From Myxococcales bacterium (GTDB lineage Bacteria; Myxococcota_A; Polyangia; Haliangiales; Haliangiaceae), in assembly GCA_016720595.1 (NCBI GenBank), contig JADKKI010000004.1:336535-400534 (forward strand): DNA of 64,000 nucleotides, given 5' to 3'. Shown piece by piece: positions 49,785 to 64,000 of this stretch. The position numbers were made by a program, and so were the translations under genes. Every line of letters begins with the position of its first letter. Position 1 is the first letter of the stretch. The notes beneath the pieces are model-generated. The model was not told the DNA's origin and ran no database searches. It saw only the letters and a program-made list of their open reading frames with translations.

Positions 49785-50543
49785 GTGGCGATCAGCCTGT
49801 CGGTCAACCTGAACAAGGTCGCGTTGCTCCGCAACTCGCGCGGCGGCGGCAACCCGTCGCCGAAGCTCGCGGGGCAGACCTGTCTCGATGCCGGCGCCTA
49901 TGGCCTGACCTTGCACTGGCGACACGACAACCGGCACACCCGCGCCGACGACGTACGCGTGCTGCGCGCGCTGTGTGCCGAGCGCGGTGCCGAGTTCAAC
50001 CTCGAGGGCGACGATCGCGAGGAGCTGATCGCGCTGGCGATCGAGCTCCAGGTCTCCCAGTTCACGCTCGTACCGGTCAAGCCTGGCGAGGTCACGAGCG
50101 ATCACGGGTGGGACGTGCCGGCCCAGCACGGCTTGATCGCGCCGATCATCGCGCGCCTCAAGGCCGCCGGCATCCGCACCGCGATGTTCATGGACTGCGA
50201 GCCCCAGGCGATGGCCGCAGCCGCGGCGACCGGCGTCGATCGCGTGGAGCTCTACACGGAGCCGTATGCGGCCTCGTTCGGGAAGCCGCAGTTCAAGGAG
50301 GAGCTGGATCGCGTGCAGCGCACCGCCAAGGCCGCGGCCGCGGCCGGCCTCGCGGTCAACGCGGGCCACGATCTCAACCTGCGCAACACGCCGCTCCTCG
50401 CGCGCATGGTGCCGGAGATCGTCGAAGCCTCGATCGGGCACGCCTTGCTCGCGGATGCGCTCTACATCGGGCTCGCGGAGGCGGTGCGGCGGTACGTGCG
50501 CGCGTGCAAGGGCGACGCTGTCGATGCGCCTGTCACGCAGTAG
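49785..50543 (+). CDS. pdxJ: Pyridoxine 5'-phosphate synthase
   Basis: The 252-residue product is a TIM-barrel of the usual PdxJ length. Family segments are [20 protein letters not shown], the [16 protein letters not shown] active-site region, AEFNLEGDD (catalytic Glu), and [14 protein letters not shown] (catalytic His region). It condenses 1-deoxyxylulose 5-phosphate and aminoacetone 3-phosphate to pyridoxine 5'-phosphate. The N-L-N-K variant in place of N-V-D-H is seen in some bacterial PdxJ lineages. It starts with GTG 49785 and overlaps the next lipoprotein gene by 20 nt. Confidence 0.93.
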
Positions 50544-51183: not shown

Positions 51184-54051
<2,868 letters not shown>

Positions 54052-54072
54052 TCGGCGGGGTAGCATGCCCCC

Positions 54073-55332
54073 ATGGCGGATCTGGTCGTACCTCAGCTTG
54101 GTGAATCGATCTCGGAAGCAGTCGTCGCACGCTGGCTCAAGCAGGTCGGTGATGCGGTGGGTGTGGACGAGCCGATCGCGGAGCTCGAGACCGACAAGAT
54201 CACCGTCCAGCTGCCGTCGCCCGTCGCGGGGGCGCTCGCAGAGCAACGCGCGAAGGTCGGCGCCACGGTGAAGGTCGGCGAGGTGATCGGTGCGGTGACC
54301 GCGGGCGCGGCCGGCAAGGCCGTCCTCGTCACGCCGTCGACGCCCGCGGCTGCTCCGGCGCCGCACGTGGGCAAGCCGATCGAGCCCCCGAACCAGCCCA
54401 CGGGGCGTCAGCCCGTCGTCGGTGGTGGGCACCTCGTCGCGGCGCCCGCGGCGGTGACTGCCGCGCCGCCCCCGGTGGTCGCCAAGCTCGACAAGGACGC
54501 ACTGCTGAAGCTCACCCCGTCGCAGCGCGCGAGCGCCCGCGAGTCCGGATCGCTGCCCGCGCCTCCGAGCAGCATCTCGTCTGCCGCGCCACCGAGTGGT
54601 GCGAGCGAAGCGGCGCGGCTCGCCGCGGTGGATCCGCGCGACGAGATCGTGCCGATGTCGCCGCTGCGCAAGCGCGTGGCCGAGCGGCTGGTGCAGGCGC
54701 AGCACGAGAGTGCGTCGCTGACCACGTTCAACGAGGTCGACATGACCGCCGTCATGGACCTGCGCACGAAGTACAAGGAGACCTTCGAGAAGAGCCACGG
54801 CGTGAAGCTCGGGTTCATGTCGTTCTTCGCGAAGGCGTGCGTCGCCGCGGCCAAGCTGTACCCCGGGCTCAATGCCGAGGTGGTGGGCGGCAACATCGTC
54901 TACAAGAAGCACTACGACTTCGGGATCGCGGTCTCCACGCCGAAGGGCCTCGTGGTCCCCGTGCTCCGCGAGGTCGATACGCTGTCGTTCGCCGGGATCG
55001 AGAAGGGCATCCTCGCCCTCGCCGACAAGGCCAAGACCGGCAAGCTCGCGCTCGCGGATCTCTCCGGCGGCACGTTCAGCATCACGAACGGCGGGATCTA
55101 CGGCTCGATGATGTCGACCCCGCTGCTCAACTACCCGCAGACCGGCATCCTCGGCATGCACAACATCGTCAAGCGCGCCCTCGTGATCGACGACGAGATC
55201 AAGGTGCGCCCGGTGATGTACCTGGCGTTGTCGTACGACCACCGCGTCGTCGACGGCAAGGAGGCGGTCTCGTTCCTCGTGGCCGTCAAGGATCGGCTCG
55301 AAGCTCCCGAGCGGATGCTCGTCGAAGTCTGA
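54073..55332 (+). CDS. sucB: Dihydrolipoyllysine succinyltransferase (E2 of 2-oxoglutarate dehydrogenase)
   Basis: The 419-residue product has one lipoyl domain (LVVPQLGESISEAVVARWLK and ELETDKITVQLPSP, lipoylated Lys about 42), an alanine/proline linker, a peripheral subunit-binding region (TPSQRASARESG), and the acyltransferase domain with SYDHRVVDGKEAVSFLV near the end. It transfers succinyl groups to CoA. An E3 gene is not adjacent, so the lpd of the PDH operon probably serves both complexes. Its lipoyl domain would be modified by LipA. Confidence 0.95.
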   Translation: MADLVVPQLGESISEAVVARWLKQVGDAVGVDEPIAELETDKITVQLPSPVAGALAEQRAKVGATVKVGEVIGAVTAGAAGKAVLVTPSTPAAAPAPHVGKPIEPPNQPTGRQPVVGGGHLVAAPAAVTAAPPPVVAKLDKDALLKLTPSQRASARESGSLPAPPSSISSAAPPSGASEAARLAAVDPRDEIVPMSPLRKRVAERLVQAQHESASLTTFNEVDMTAVMDLRTKYKETFEKSHGVKLGFMSFFAKACVAAAKLYPGLNAEVVGGNIVYKKHYDFGIAVSTPKGLVVPVLREVDTLSFAGIEKGILALADKAKTGKLALADLSGGTFSITNGGIYGSMMSTPLLNYPQTGILGMHNIVKRALVIDDEIKVRPVMYLALSYDHRVVDGKEAVSFLVAVKDRLEAPERMLVEV

Positions 55333-57369: not shown

Positions 57370-59238
<1,869 letters not shown>

Positions 59239-59350: not shown

Positions 59351-62300
59351 GTGCAGGCCCTCGGTAACTTCATTGGAGGCGCGTTCGTCGCTCCCTCCGG
59401 TAAGGCGCTCGTCTCCCGGAACCCCGCGGCGGATGGCGCCGTGGTGTTCGAGACCGGATACACGGTCAGTGCGGTCGCGGAGGCCACCGCGGCGGCGGGT
59501 GCGGCCCAGCCCGGGTGGGCAAGGCTCACGCAGGCCGCGCGGGCCGCGCACCTCGAGGCCTTCAAGCAGCAGCTGGCTGCACGTGCCGATCAGCTCGCCG
59601 ATGCGATCGTGATCGAGACCGGAAAGCTGCGCACCGAGGCGAAGCTCGAGGTGCAGACGCTGCTCAACCGCTTCGACCTCGTGAAGACCGCGATGGCCGC
59701 GGATCTCAAGCCGGGGCAGGTGGCGCCCGGCGAGCACCTTCGCTACGCGGCGCTCGGCGTCGTCGGCGTGATCGGCCCGTTCAACTATCCGATCCACCTG
59801 TGTCACGCGCACGTGGTCCCCGCGCTGCTCGCGGGCAACACGGTGGTCATCAAGCCGAGCGACATCACGCCGCTGTGCGGGCAGCGCTATGCCGAGGCCG
59901 CGCATGCGGCGAAGCTGCCCGCGGGCGTGCTCAACGTGGTGGTCGGCGCGGGAGAGGTCGGCGCGGCGATGGTCGAGGCGCGCGAGCTCCGCGGGCTGGC
60001 TTTCACCGGGAGCTGGGCGGTGGGCCGCCGGATCCTCGAAGCAGCACTCGATCGTCCCGAGCTCCTCGTCGCCCTCGAGATGGGCGGCAAGAACATGTGC
60101 GTGGTGCTCGACGACTGTGCGCTCCGCCAGGCAGTGCACGAGGTCGCCGTCGGTGCGTGGCTGTCCGCCGGGCAGCGGTGTACCGGGACCGAGCGCGTGC
60201 TCGTTCACCGCAAGATCGCGGATCGCTTCCTGCCCGCGCTCGCGCAGGTCGCGCGCGGCCTCCGGTTCGGCAACCCCGAGGATGCGAGCATGTTCGCCGG
60301 CCCGCTGGCCACGCATGGCGCACTGACCAAGCTCGAGCTGGCGATCGAGACCGCGCGGAAGGCCGGCGCCGAGCCGCTCGTCCCCGGGCAGAAGCTCGCC
60401 GGCGGGTACTACCGGACCGCCTCGATCCACCAGCTCCCCGACGGCGTGCACCACGTCCCGGGCTACACGGACCACGAGGTGTTCGGCCCGGATCTGTGCG
60501 TCGAGATCGTGGACTCGGATGACGAGGCGATCAGCGTGATCGAGGCGAGCCGCTATGGCTTCGCGAATGCCGTGTTCACGGCGTCGCAGGCGCGGTTCGA
60601 GGAGTTCGCCGCGCGAACGCGCTCGGGTATCCTCAACCGGAATCGCTCCACCAACCTCGCGAGCCCGAAGCTGCCGTTCGGCGGCGTCGGTCGCAGCGGC
60701 AACTATCGCCCGGCCGGCGCGTGGGCGCACCGGAACCTCACGGTGCCGGTGGCGATCCTCGAGAACCCTCTCGGCGCGGTCACGCCCCACCCGCAGCTCG
60801 CCGCGCTGATCCCGTCGATCGATCTCGACCGGCTCGATCAGCAGCACGCGCAGGAGGAGGCGGTCGAGATGTCCCGCCGCCTCGTCGATCTTCCGCGGCC
60901 CATGCAGATCACGCGGCCCACGGGCGGCAAGCTCCCCACCAGCGAGGCGCTGCTCGCGCGGCTGTACGCCGGTGATCGCGTCCCGAAGGAGAAGAAGCCG
61001 CCGGTGTTCGATCACCTGCGATCGGCCGGGCCGTGGATGGTCTCCGTCGATGCGGAGCCGCTCGCGATCCTCGATGGCATGAGCCAGACCGCGACGGTGG
61101 TCGGTGGGTTCGCCGAGGACCCCGTCGTCCGCGCGTACACCGAGGGCGAGTTCGGCGACACGCTCGTCGAGAACGAGGACACCGCACTCGGCGAGACCTG
61201 GGCAGCAGCGGAGTATGCATCGACGTTGCGGCAGCTCGTGCCCGGCCTGCCGCACGTCACGTTCGTGGCGTCAGGCGCCGAGGCCAACGAGAAGGCGATG
61301 GCGCTGTGCCGGATCAACTGCGCGCGCAAGGACGCCACCAAGGTCCTCGCGTTCGACGGCAGCTTCCACGGCCGCTTGCTGCTCGCGCTCCACGCGACGC
61401 ACTCGCCGAGCAAGCGGGCGCCGTTCGAGATCGCGGGCTATCAGACCCAGTTCGCACCGTTCCCGGTGTGGGGCGCGCCGGGGGACGAGCCGCTCGCGCC
61501 GAGCGGGTTCTACGCGGCGGCTGCGACCGGGCAGATCGAGGAGCTCCAGGAGCGGTTCGGCGATGCGAAGGATGATGCGCTGCTCGCGGCCGAGGTCGCA
61601 TCGCTCGCGGCGGTGCACGCGGCGTTGCGAACCGGCGAGTACAACTGCTGCATCATCGAGCCGATGCAGTCCGAGGGTGGCGATCGCTATGCCACCGAGC
61701 GGTTCTTCCGCGCGCTGCGGCTGCTCACGCGGTTCCACAACACGTTCCTCGTGTTCGACGAGGTCCAGGTCGGGTTCGGCCTGGGCGGCCCGTTCGCGTG
61801 GCACTCCAAGTTCCGCCTGCTCAACCAGCGGGGGCAGCCGGACTATCCGGATGCGGTGACGTTCGCGAAGCGCGCGCAGGTGGGTGTGGTGATGTCGCGG
61901 TTCGCGGATACCGAGCACGCGAGCGCGCACAACGCCTCGCTCGTGCGCGGGCGGATCCATGCGGACATGGTCTCGACCAGCCACAACGCCGAGCGCATCG
62001 AGAAGCTCGTGCATCCTCGTTTGGCGCAGCTCGCGCGCGCGTATCCGCACCTGGTGCAGGCGCCGCGCGGCACCGGCTATGCCTTCGCATTCGAGCTCCC
62101 GACGGCGGCGCAGCTCGAGGCACTGATTGGCCAGCGGTTCTGGCGCGGCGGCATCGTGTTCGCGGCAGGGACGCGCACGGCGCGCTGGCGGTTGTCGGAT
62201 AGCTTCCTCGCGCGCGAGATCGATCTGCTGTTCGAGACGATCCGTCGCTCGTTGTCGTGGATCGATGCGCACGAGGGGCGCAAGCCGCCGGAGTGGGAGG

Positions 62301-64000
62301 ACCAGGTCGTGCCGGTGCCAGCTGCCGCGCCGGCCGCACCGGCGACCCCCGCGGTCAGTTATCGCCTGGTGCCGCACGTCGAGGCGATGAGTCACCTGCC
62401 GGCGATCCTCGACATCGAGTATCAGGTCTACGAGCCCGCGCGCCGAACGCCGCCGGCCGAGATCCGTGCCGCGATCGAGGATGCCGAGGGTTCGCTGATC
62501 GTCGCGGAGGCTCCGAGCCCGAGCGGGCAGGTGCAGCTGGTCGCGTTCGCGATCGGTGCGCCGCTCGAGCAGTGCAAGGACGTCGAGGGTCCGGACGATG
62601 ACCCGATGCTCGGCAAGAACAACACGATGTACTCGGTCTCGATCACCGTGGCGCCGACGTTCCAGTCCTCCGGCATCGGCCGCAAGCTGAAGGAGCAGCA
62701 GCTCCGTGATGCTGCCGCGCGGACGCGTCCCGATGGGACGCTGCGCTACCGCTACGTGACCGGGCGCAACCGCGTGGGTAAGACGGCGCAGATGATGTAC
62801 CTGAACCGCGTGTTCGGTGCGCACGTCGTCACGATCCTCACCGGGCAGTACGAGGATCCGGAAGGGCAGGCGATCTACTACCGGATCCCGCTCGGTCCGC
62901 TGACGCCGGATCCGGTGGTCAAGCAGGAGGTGCTGCGCCGTCGTGCCGCCGCCACGCACCACGAGGACGAGGTGACGTTCGATCTCGCGTCGGGGCTCAC
63001 CAAGCCGTTCTCGGTTGCACCGGCGACGCTGACCAACCTCGAGGAGCAGGGGCTGCTCTACGGGCCCGCGGTCAACAAGCTGACGCTCATGAACTACGTC
63101 ACGCCGGGTGTGGTCCGCGCGCTCGAGTGGATCGGCTCGCTGATGCCAGAGCTCCCGCACCTCTACCTGACGTCGTCGCGGGACGAATCCGTGGACAAAG
63201 CGATTCGCCTGATCCGGGTCACGCGCAAGACCGGGCAGGTGGCGATCGGACTCGCGGGTGGCTACTACGGCCACACCGCGGCGTCGTGTCGCTCGCTCTC
63301 GGACCCCGAGGTCCACAATGGCGGCCCCGGGCACTTCGCGTGGCCGCGGGTCCCGCACCCGGCGATCGCGGGCACGGCCGCGACGATCAGCGCGCTCCGT
63401 GCCGCCGTGGATGCGGCGGGCGGCAAGGACAAGATCCTCGGCTTCTTCTACGAGCTCGTGCAGGAGCGCACGGGTCACGTGCTCCCGCCGGACTTCCTCA
63501 CCGCGCTCGCGGCCCTGCGCACCGAGCTCGAGATCCCGCTGATCGCGGTGGAGACGACGACGCACACCTACCGGAGCGGCAAGGGGCCGTTCCTGTCGAC
63601 CGCGCTGGGTCTCATCCCCGACGTGCTCGTGTGGTGGGGCGGCGGCCAGACCGGCTATCTCCACTGCTCGACCAAGTGGTACGTGGGCACGCCCTTGACC
63701 CTGGTCTCGACCTGGGATGGTGACGAGCTGTCCTTGATCCGCCAGCACCACCACCTCCGCGCCGCGCGTCACCTCGACCTCGCGCCGGGCATCGCGGCGC
63801 TCGATGCCGCCCTCGCGAACGTCCCCTCTGCCGGCCTCGGCGCCTACCGCGTGATCTCGGCGGGGGACAAAGCACCGGCCCTCGCGGAACAGCTCGCCGA
63901 CCGTGGCCTCGTCGTCCGCCGGTTCCCGGGCGGACGGCTCGGCATCATCCCGGCCCTCGATCAGGTCGAGGCCGCCGCCCGAGCAATGGGGACGCTTTCA
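59351..64000 (+). CDS. Four-domain fusion: AstD-like aldehyde dehydrogenase, lysine-6-aminotransferase-like domain, GNAT, and a degenerate aminotransferase (partial at right edge)
   Basis: A single frame stays open from GTG 59351 (an in-frame stop at 59318 excludes an earlier start) to the window edge, giving 1550 codons without a stop. Residues 1-475 are an aldehyde dehydrogenase of the AstD (succinylglutamate semialdehyde) type: GPFNYPIHL, LVALEMGGKN (Glu243), SAGQRCTGTERV (Cys277), and LPFGGVGRSGNYRPAGAWAH. Residues about 500-975 are a class III aminotransferase close to lysine 6-aminotransferase: SGAEANEKAM, EGGDR, LVFDEVQVGFGLGG (Asp803) and DAVTFAKRAQVG (Lys840). Residues about 1000-1150 are a GNAT domain (SVSITVAPTFQSSGIGRKLK). 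Residues about 1230-1550 are a second aminotransferase fold lacking both catalytic residues (WWGGGQTGYL at the lysine position). The GTG start and lack of a nearby -10 box leave the promoter uncertain. Confidence 0.85.
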   Translation, partial: MQALGNFIGGAFVAPSGKALVSRNPAADGAVVFETGYTVSAVAEATAAAGAAQPGWARLTQAARAAHLEAFKQQLAARADQLADAIVIETGKLRTEAKLEVQTLLNRFDLVKTAMAADLKPGQVAPGEHLRYAALGVVGVIGPFNYPIHLCHAHVVPALLAGNTVVIKPSDITPLCGQRYAEAAHAAKLPAGVLNVVVGAGEVGAAMVEARELRGLAFTGSWAVGRRILEAALDRPELLVALEMGGKNMCVVLDDCALRQAVHEVAVGAWLSAGQRCTGTERVLVHRKIADRFLPALAQVARGLRFGNPEDASMFAGPLATHGALTKLELAIETARKAGAEPLVPGQKLAGGYYRTASIHQLPDGVHHVPGYTDHEVFGPDLCVEIVDSDDEAISVIEASRYGFANAVFTASQARFEEFAARTRSGILNRNRSTNLASPKLPFGGVGRSGNYRPAGAWAHRNLTVPVAILENPLGAVTPHPQLAALIPSIDLDRLDQQHAQEEAVEMSRRLVDLPRPMQITRPTGGKLPTSEALLARLYAGDRVPKEKKPPVFDHLRSAGPWMVSVDAEPLAILDGMSQTATVVGGFAEDPVVRAYTEGEFGDTLVENEDTALGETWAAAEYASTLRQLVPGLPHVTFVASGAEANEKAMALCRINCARKDATKVLAFDGSFHGRLLLALHATHSPSKRAPFEIAGYQTQFAPFPVWGAPGDEPLAPSGFYAAAATGQIEELQERFGDAKDDALLAAEVASLAAVHAALRTGEYNCCIIEPMQSEGGDRYATERFFRALRLLTRFHNTFLVFDEVQVGFGLGGPFAWHSKFRLLNQRGQPDYPDAVTFAKRAQVGVVMSRFADTEHASAHNASLVRGRIHADMVSTSHNAERIEKLVHPRLAQLARAYPHLVQAPRGTGYAFAFELPTAAQLEALIGQRFWRGGIVFAAGTRTARWRLSDSFLAREIDLLFETIRRSLSWIDAHEGRKPPEWEDQVVPVPAAAPAAPATPAVSYRLVPHVEAMSHLPAILDIEYQVYEPARRTPPAEIRAAIEDAEGSLIVAEAPSPSGQVQLVAFAIGAPLEQCKDVEGPDDDPMLGKNNTMYSVSITVAPTFQSSGIGRKLKEQQLRDAAARTRPDGTLRYRYVTGRNRVGKTAQMMYLNRVFGAHVVTILTGQYEDPEGQAIYYRIPLGPLTPDPVVKQEVLRRRAAATHHEDEVTFDLASGLTKPFSVAPATLTNLEEQGLLYGPAVNKLTLMNYVTPGVVRALEWIGSLMPELPHLYLTSSRDESVDKAIRLIRVTRKTGQVAIGLAGGYYGHTAASCRSLSDPEVHNGGPGHFAWPRVPHPAIAGTAATISALRAAVDAAGGKDKILGFFYELVQERTGHVLPPDFLTALAALRTELEIPLIAVETTTHTYRSGKGPFLSTALGLIPDVLVWWGGGQTGYLHCSTKWYVGTPLTLVSTWDGDELSLIRQHHHLRAARHLDLAPGIAALDAALANVPSAGLGAYRVISAGDKAPALAEQLADRGLVVRRFPGGRLGIIPALDQVEAAARAMGTLS

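Follow-up and report, generated by a model that had tools for sequence, protein, structure and literature searches.

We suggest that the giant gene at the right-hand end of the DNA analysed here (64,000 nucleotides of contig JADKKI010000004.1 from a Myxococcales bacterium, hereafter the window) encodes three enzymes in one chain and not four: an AstD-like aldehyde dehydrogenase (ALDH), a GNAT N-acyltransferase and a single class III aminotransferase in two halves. These halves, AT1 and AT2, lie on either side of the GNAT domain and, to judge from their conserved motifs, very likely make up one composite enzyme. Together with a pathway in which a diamino acid would be degraded via N-acylated intermediates, this is our best explanation of the chain as a whole, and one that we hold with moderate confidence. 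A first-pass annotation of the window had recognized the domain order (ALDH, aminotransferase, GNAT, aminotransferase fold), which was confirmed, all four parts sharing a single open frame in 26 of the 48 loci compared, but it had treated the last domain as an activity of its own. This "pseudo-aminotransferase" is probably no fourth activity and resembles instead the missing half of the AT1 site.

The giant open reading frame (ORF) is real and conserved, and its parts are laid out as follows (LAT, lysine 6-aminotransferase of Mycobacterium tuberculosis, Rv3290c; PLP, pyridoxal phosphate; row counts refer to the 52-row alignment described below; the roles given for Glu243 and Cys277 are those usual in the ALDH family):

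59351..64000, + strand: fusion gene; 1550 of 1551 codons lie in the window, the last codon and the stop just beyond its edge
59390..60742, + strand: AstD-like ALDH domain (residues 14-464)
60077..60079, + strand: ALDH general base Glu243
60179..60181, + strand: ALDH catalytic Cys277 (GQRCTG)
60989..62248, + strand: AT1, putative class III aminotransferase half with the catalytic residues (residues 547-966)
61757..61759, + strand: AT1 Asp803 (LAT Asp271), 52/52 rows
61868..61870, + strand: AT1 Schiff-base Lys840 (LAT Lys300), 51/52 rows
62348..62914, + strand: GNAT domain, inserted between both aminotransferase halves
62936..64000, + strand: AT2, putative class III aminotransferase half without the catalytic lysine
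63632..63649, + strand: AT2 WWGGGQ at the place expected for the catalytic lysine (lysine in 0/52 rows)
63707..63724, + strand: AT2 STWDGD loop, compare the S329-T330-W331 loop of LAT, which serves the PLP of the partner subunit; missing from AT1

AT1 matches PF00202 (E 2.8e-39). In alignment A1, made up of the window, 24 loci from the L021-L050 set of 30 (without the incomplete L041, L042 and L047-L050), 12 longer gene calls and 15 of 343 proteins listed by protein searches, the residues aligned with LAT Arg170 and Arg422 are conserved in 50 and 52 rows, respectively, and the one aligned with LAT Glu243 is among the invariant positions. The glutamate switch and both arginines acting in LAT are thus present in AT1, which bears out its earlier description as similar to lysine 6-aminotransferase. 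In LAT, Arg170 is reported to contact the lysine substrate through bidentate bonds (PMC9780415). The STx.G loop is found in AT1 of none of the 52 rows, and in a phmmer alignment with LAT, AT1 skips the STWGGN loop region. AT2, on the other hand, carries STW.G in 51 rows; its piece positions 934-950 are free of lysine in all 52, so that AT2 lacks the Schiff-base lysine expected of the class III family. The LAT report has Asn328, Ser329 and Thr330 supplied by the partner subunit, with Thr330 holding the PLP phosphate (PMC9780415). At the level of sequence, the counterpart of the partner-subunit Ser-Thr loop stands in AT2 and not in AT1.

The motifs of both halves also disappear together. L078 is the sole row without STW.G and also the sole row without DEVQ and AK[RK] in AT1; its halves score well as wholes (86 and 156 bits for AT1, in two pieces, and 198 bits for AT2). 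Three loci outside the alignment (L085, L086 and L088) have neither DEVQ nor STW.G; L085 retains fragments of AT1 and AT2 (33 and 66 bits), and in L086 and L088 the remains are marginal (<10 bits). The GNAT scores 182-214 bits in these four loci. Joint loss was judged on DEVQ and STW.G (51/52 rows each), as no more than 40 of the 52 intact rows contain AK[RK].Q. Since the AT1 and AT2 motifs are lost together with the GNAT intact, the two halves appear to be one functional unit that is kept or lost whole. This speaks against AT2 being an independent ligand-binding or scaffold domain beside an AT1 that forms an ordinary interchain homodimer, in which, moreover, both sites would be without the STW loop. 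AT2 does possess invariant residues of its own (E912, G818, W966, D967 and D969 in piece numbering, 52/52 rows), in agreement with such a role, which we nevertheless regard as improbable.

Structure prediction for residues 490-1550 (AT1-GNAT-AT2) gave a predicted local distance difference test score (pLDDT) of 93.3 and a predicted template modelling score (pTM) of 0.93, so that the placement of AT1, GNAT and AT2 is predicted with confidence. From the pTM and the motifs we infer that AT1 and AT2 would pair within the chain as a pseudo-dimer that has one PLP site. AT1 shares its fold and active-site residues with LAT and with the eukaryotic-type γ-aminobutyrate (GABA) aminotransferase, the STW loop sitting in AT2. 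LAT is reported to be a homodimer with sites built from both subunits (PMC9780415), whereas the fusion has two unequal halves in one chain with the GNAT between them, and would have at most one PLP site per AT1/AT2 pair. If the composite site is real, a two-site class III homodimer has become a one-site single chain, its freed half serving as a scaffold for other enzymes of the pathway, and the natural versions without both motif sets (the four loci above) indicate how the parts rely on one another. Among fold-type I PLP enzymes, the glycine decarboxylase P-protein and the serine palmitoyltransferase subunits have one half or subunit without the catalytic lysine that supports the site of the other; these belong to other PLP families with no GNAT or ALDH attached. 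We found no description in the open-access literature of an ALDH joined to a GNAT between complementary aminotransferase halves, in line with the earlier claim that the four-part order is undescribed.

An assembly join or frameshift as the origin of the giant frame, named in the first-pass annotation as a possible refutation, was rejected: homologues and genome loci show the same order in open frames, and the stop follows codon 1551. Both PF00171 and PF00202 were found in 116 of the 120 homologues listed out of 644, and the order recurs in 10 loci from genome contigs (one truncated at the contig end), with records under Deltaproteobacteria, Kofleriaceae, Myxococcales, Sandaracinaceae and Polyangia. 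Long antisense ORFs, such as an 833-aa frame opposite 61271-63772, were attributed to high G+C content and discounted; antisense frames open in several other loci were excluded by similarity.

Matches to residues 490-1550 at E<=1e-20 occur in 57 of 377 Myxococcota genomes (hereafter carriers). Three of them (G068, G097 and G256) contribute no more than ordinary aminotransferases, and G032 is matched through its GNAT alone. The 48 loci compared come from G001-G010 and 38 more genomes, covering 41 of the 57 carriers and 7 other genomes. AT1-GNAT-AT2 lies within one frame in 43 of them. Apart from the 26 complete fusions, the ALDH is a separate adjacent gene in 5 loci and missing, by the limits used, in 15; L006 reads ALDH-AT1-GNAT as far as its contig end. 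A partial ALDH at a contig start (L079) was not counted in this tally, and L089, the second piece of G117, which is without a GNAT, was set aside in the scoring. The one remaining locus, in G032, carries a 685-aa ALDH-GNAT fusion without aminotransferase halves (L087, 9733-11790, - strand), with a C45 gene ~12 kb off. In a quick tree, the forms without ALDH and the split forms each fall on one side of a branch (support 100), and the branch of the fused group has a support of only 54. Four split forms (L066, L070, L081 and L090) have additional stretches ahead of AT1 and in the interval from AT1 to GNAT.

By sequence, the single parts of the fusion all belong to known superfamilies, and none scored above an equivalog cut-off among the matches listed (best 25 of 107, best 25 of 67, and the GNAT families). 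The ALDH domain, with Glu243 and Cys277 in place, matches PF00171 (E 2.9e-107). As had been proposed, its nearest named relative is AstD (N-succinylglutamate 5-semialdehyde dehydrogenase), both among solved structures (3ju8, E 2.5e-74) and by family score (317 bits against TIGR03240, under the cut-off of 579.3), compared to 195 bits against L-piperidine-6-carboxylate dehydrogenase; unlike AstD, it is joined to other enzymes. AT1 scored 122.1 bits against the L-lysine 6-transaminase equivalog TIGR03251, not reaching the cut-off of 520.8, with the eukaryotic-type GABA transaminase close behind (103 bits). The GNAT belongs to its superfamily by fold and profile match; its alignment A2 profile matched no solved structure by sequence, but fold comparison did find a match.

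The genes that often lie 3' of the fusion in relatives encode a C45 autoproteolytic acyltransferase/hydrolase (NF040521, above its cut-off), a second class III aminotransferase (ATc1) and 3-oxoacid CoA-transferase subunits A and B (TIGR02429 and TIGR02428, SCOT-like); the window stops before the corresponding region. For ATc1, the best NCBIfam model is PRK06062 (below its cut-off), and the best solved relative is taurine:2-oxoglutarate aminotransferase (277 bits; the next 232). Within 6.5 kb downstream, the 48 loci contain C45 in 21 cases, ATc1 in 29, CoA-transferase A in 25 and B in 19 (on the other strand in 4); where 7 kb or more is available (34 loci), the respective counts are 15, 22, 18 and 15. 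Clustering assigns a C45-type gene, below the score limit of this count, to four further loci (L063, L064, L065 and L084). Three of the four loci without aminotransferase motifs also have ATc1; the CoA-transferase genes lie downstream of the GNAT in L078, L086 and L088, and on the other side in L085. The partners also occur apart from the fusion: all four together on another contig (G296), C45 and ATc1 paired on another contig (G008 and G010), or C45 ~12 kb and ATc1 ~57 kb away with the fusion on a chromosome-size contig (G187 and G364). C45 relatives above 170 bits were found in 31 genomes (28 carriers and 3 others), and at E<=1e-25 in 61 genomes (30 carriers and 31 others), in both cases with kinship not corrected; this weakens C45 as a specific marker for the pathway. 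We conclude that the operon probably serves one shared pathway, and this conserved gene set makes a diamino-acid pathway in Myxococcota testable. In genomes without the fusion, C45 genes stand near an AmpG-like transporter (L148 and L149) or a UppP-like gene (L150), as judged by eye from protein starts.

A GNAT, an acyl-hydrolase, two aminotransferases, an ALDH and a 3-oxoacid CoA-transferase together fit a pathway that acylates a diamino acid, breaks it down and removes the acyl group again. The partners thus give the GNAT, for which the first-pass annotation saw no obvious place, a role in an N-acylated diamino-acid route; acylated metabolism, which it had named only as an alternative, is now preferred in this form. 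As transamination of a β-amino acid yields a 3-oxo acid, β-lysine is indicated, although as a tentative candidate. In the favoured order, lysine 2,3-aminomutase would make β-lysine, the GNAT would acylate its 6-amine, and ATc1 would turn the product into a 3-oxo acid, to be cleaved by the CoA-transferase and a postulated thiolase. The C45 enzyme would then deacylate 4-acylaminobutyryl-CoA to GABA, which AT1/AT2 would convert to succinic semialdehyde and the ALDH would oxidise to succinate. It may be that the same genes act instead in the order GNAT, AT1/AT2, ALDH, C45, ATc1 and CoA-transferase, through 3-oxoadipate.

The acetylated β-lysine route is known from work on Pseudomonas and from the B. 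subtilis kamA-yodPQRST cluster, where acyltransferase, class III aminotransferase, two-subunit CoA-transferase and deacylase occur together; its final steps, by GABA transaminase and succinic semialdehyde dehydrogenase, could be taken over by common enzymes. Retention of the GNAT near CoA-transferase genes in the four loci without aminotransferase motifs suits this route, and a CoA-transferase and a class III aminotransferase were found beside the acyltransferase, as it would lead one to expect. Compared to the yod cluster, the fusion differs in having a GNAT outside the AblB/YodP family, a C45 deacylase in place of YodQ and an unlinked aminomutase. Taken on its own, the acetylated β-lysine route in the favoured order has a rather low probability. 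The fullest version, namely a β-lysine multienzyme with a split class III aminotransferase, one composite PLP site and a C45 Ntn-hydrolase acting as 4-acetamidobutyryl-CoA deacetylase, an enzyme not known to have an assigned gene, is a slightly longer shot.

Several observations weigh against our interpretation. The AT1/AT2 interface is read from pTM and motifs, and the activity is a predicted one. Of the 34 loci where 7 kb or more is available, 9 have none of the four partner genes downstream, and close C45 relatives without the fusion exist in G371, G109 and G316. The ALDH is nearer to AstD than to succinic semialdehyde dehydrogenase, which makes the order through 3-oxoadipate the better fit for this domain. 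When 49 GNAT rows were compared to protein families, the 10 families matched (E<=0.01) did not include TIGR03827 (AblB, β-lysine N6-acetyltransferase). Relatives of lysine 2,3-aminomutase were present in 10 of 10 carriers, none above the family cut-off, and are near-universal (345 of 377 genomes); at least two copies were found in 44 of 57 carriers versus 94 of 320 other genomes, with kinship not corrected. KamA was rejected as a member of the operon, none being found in the fusion neighbourhoods examined. G032, with its ALDH-GNAT fusion and C45 but no aminotransferase halves, has a best ATc1 relative of only 34% identity and is explained well by neither order. In the Kofleriaceae-type genomes examined, KamA stands beside HhH-GPD, NUDIX and QueG-like genes.

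The arrangement in G032 is in keeping with a route resembling that of AstD, in which the GNAT acylates the α-amine of ornithine or lysine, AT1/AT2 removes the far amine, the ALDH gives an N-acyl acid, and C45, from a family that includes acyl-hydrolases, frees glutamate or 2-aminoadipate. Such a route would make GNAT, aminotransferase and ALDH consecutive steps in one chain and agrees with the AstD-likeness of the ALDH. However, ATc1 and the CoA-transferase would be superfluous, and the GNAT outlives the aminotransferase motifs in G221, G178, G197 and G379. Furthermore, the 49 GNAT rows matched 7 families in a second comparison, none of them PF04958, the AstA-type succinyltransferase (E<=0.01; AstA elsewhere in the genomes was not searched). 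We give this route a minor share of the probability.

Conversion of lysine to 2-aminoadipate, with AT1 as lysine 6-aminotransferase and channelling to the ALDH, was the first choice of the first-pass annotation, a rank that the analysis did not support; GNAT and AT2 would then have side roles. AT1 does resemble LAT, but its score falls far below the family cut-off, with GABA transaminase close behind; the ALDH scores well below its AstD value against L-piperidine-6-carboxylate dehydrogenase; C45, ATc1 and the CoA-transferase find no role; and the GNAT alone stays intact in the four loci without aminotransferase motifs. We regard this reading as improbable. Degradation of an acylated diamine (putrescine or cadaverine) to GABA or 5-aminovalerate would use the same enzyme classes (acyltransferase, amine transaminase, aldehyde dehydrogenase and deacylase) in one operon, but is the least credible of all, given the SCOT-like CoA-transferase and the LAT Arg170 equivalent kept by AT1, which is not expected for a carboxylate-free diamine.

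Upstream of the fusion, a divergent neighbour (57370-59238, - strand) with FHA, GAF and SpoIIE phosphatase domains has a relative in 13 of the 48 loci and may have a part in how the fusion is regulated. Genes for 2-oxoglutarate dehydrogenase E1 and E2 (51184-55332, + strand) lie further upstream, with relatives in 6 and 7 of the 48 loci, respectively. A gene for PdxJ, of PLP biosynthesis (49785-50543, + strand), is located ~9 kb upstream of this PLP enzyme and is also found in 3 of the 48 loci.
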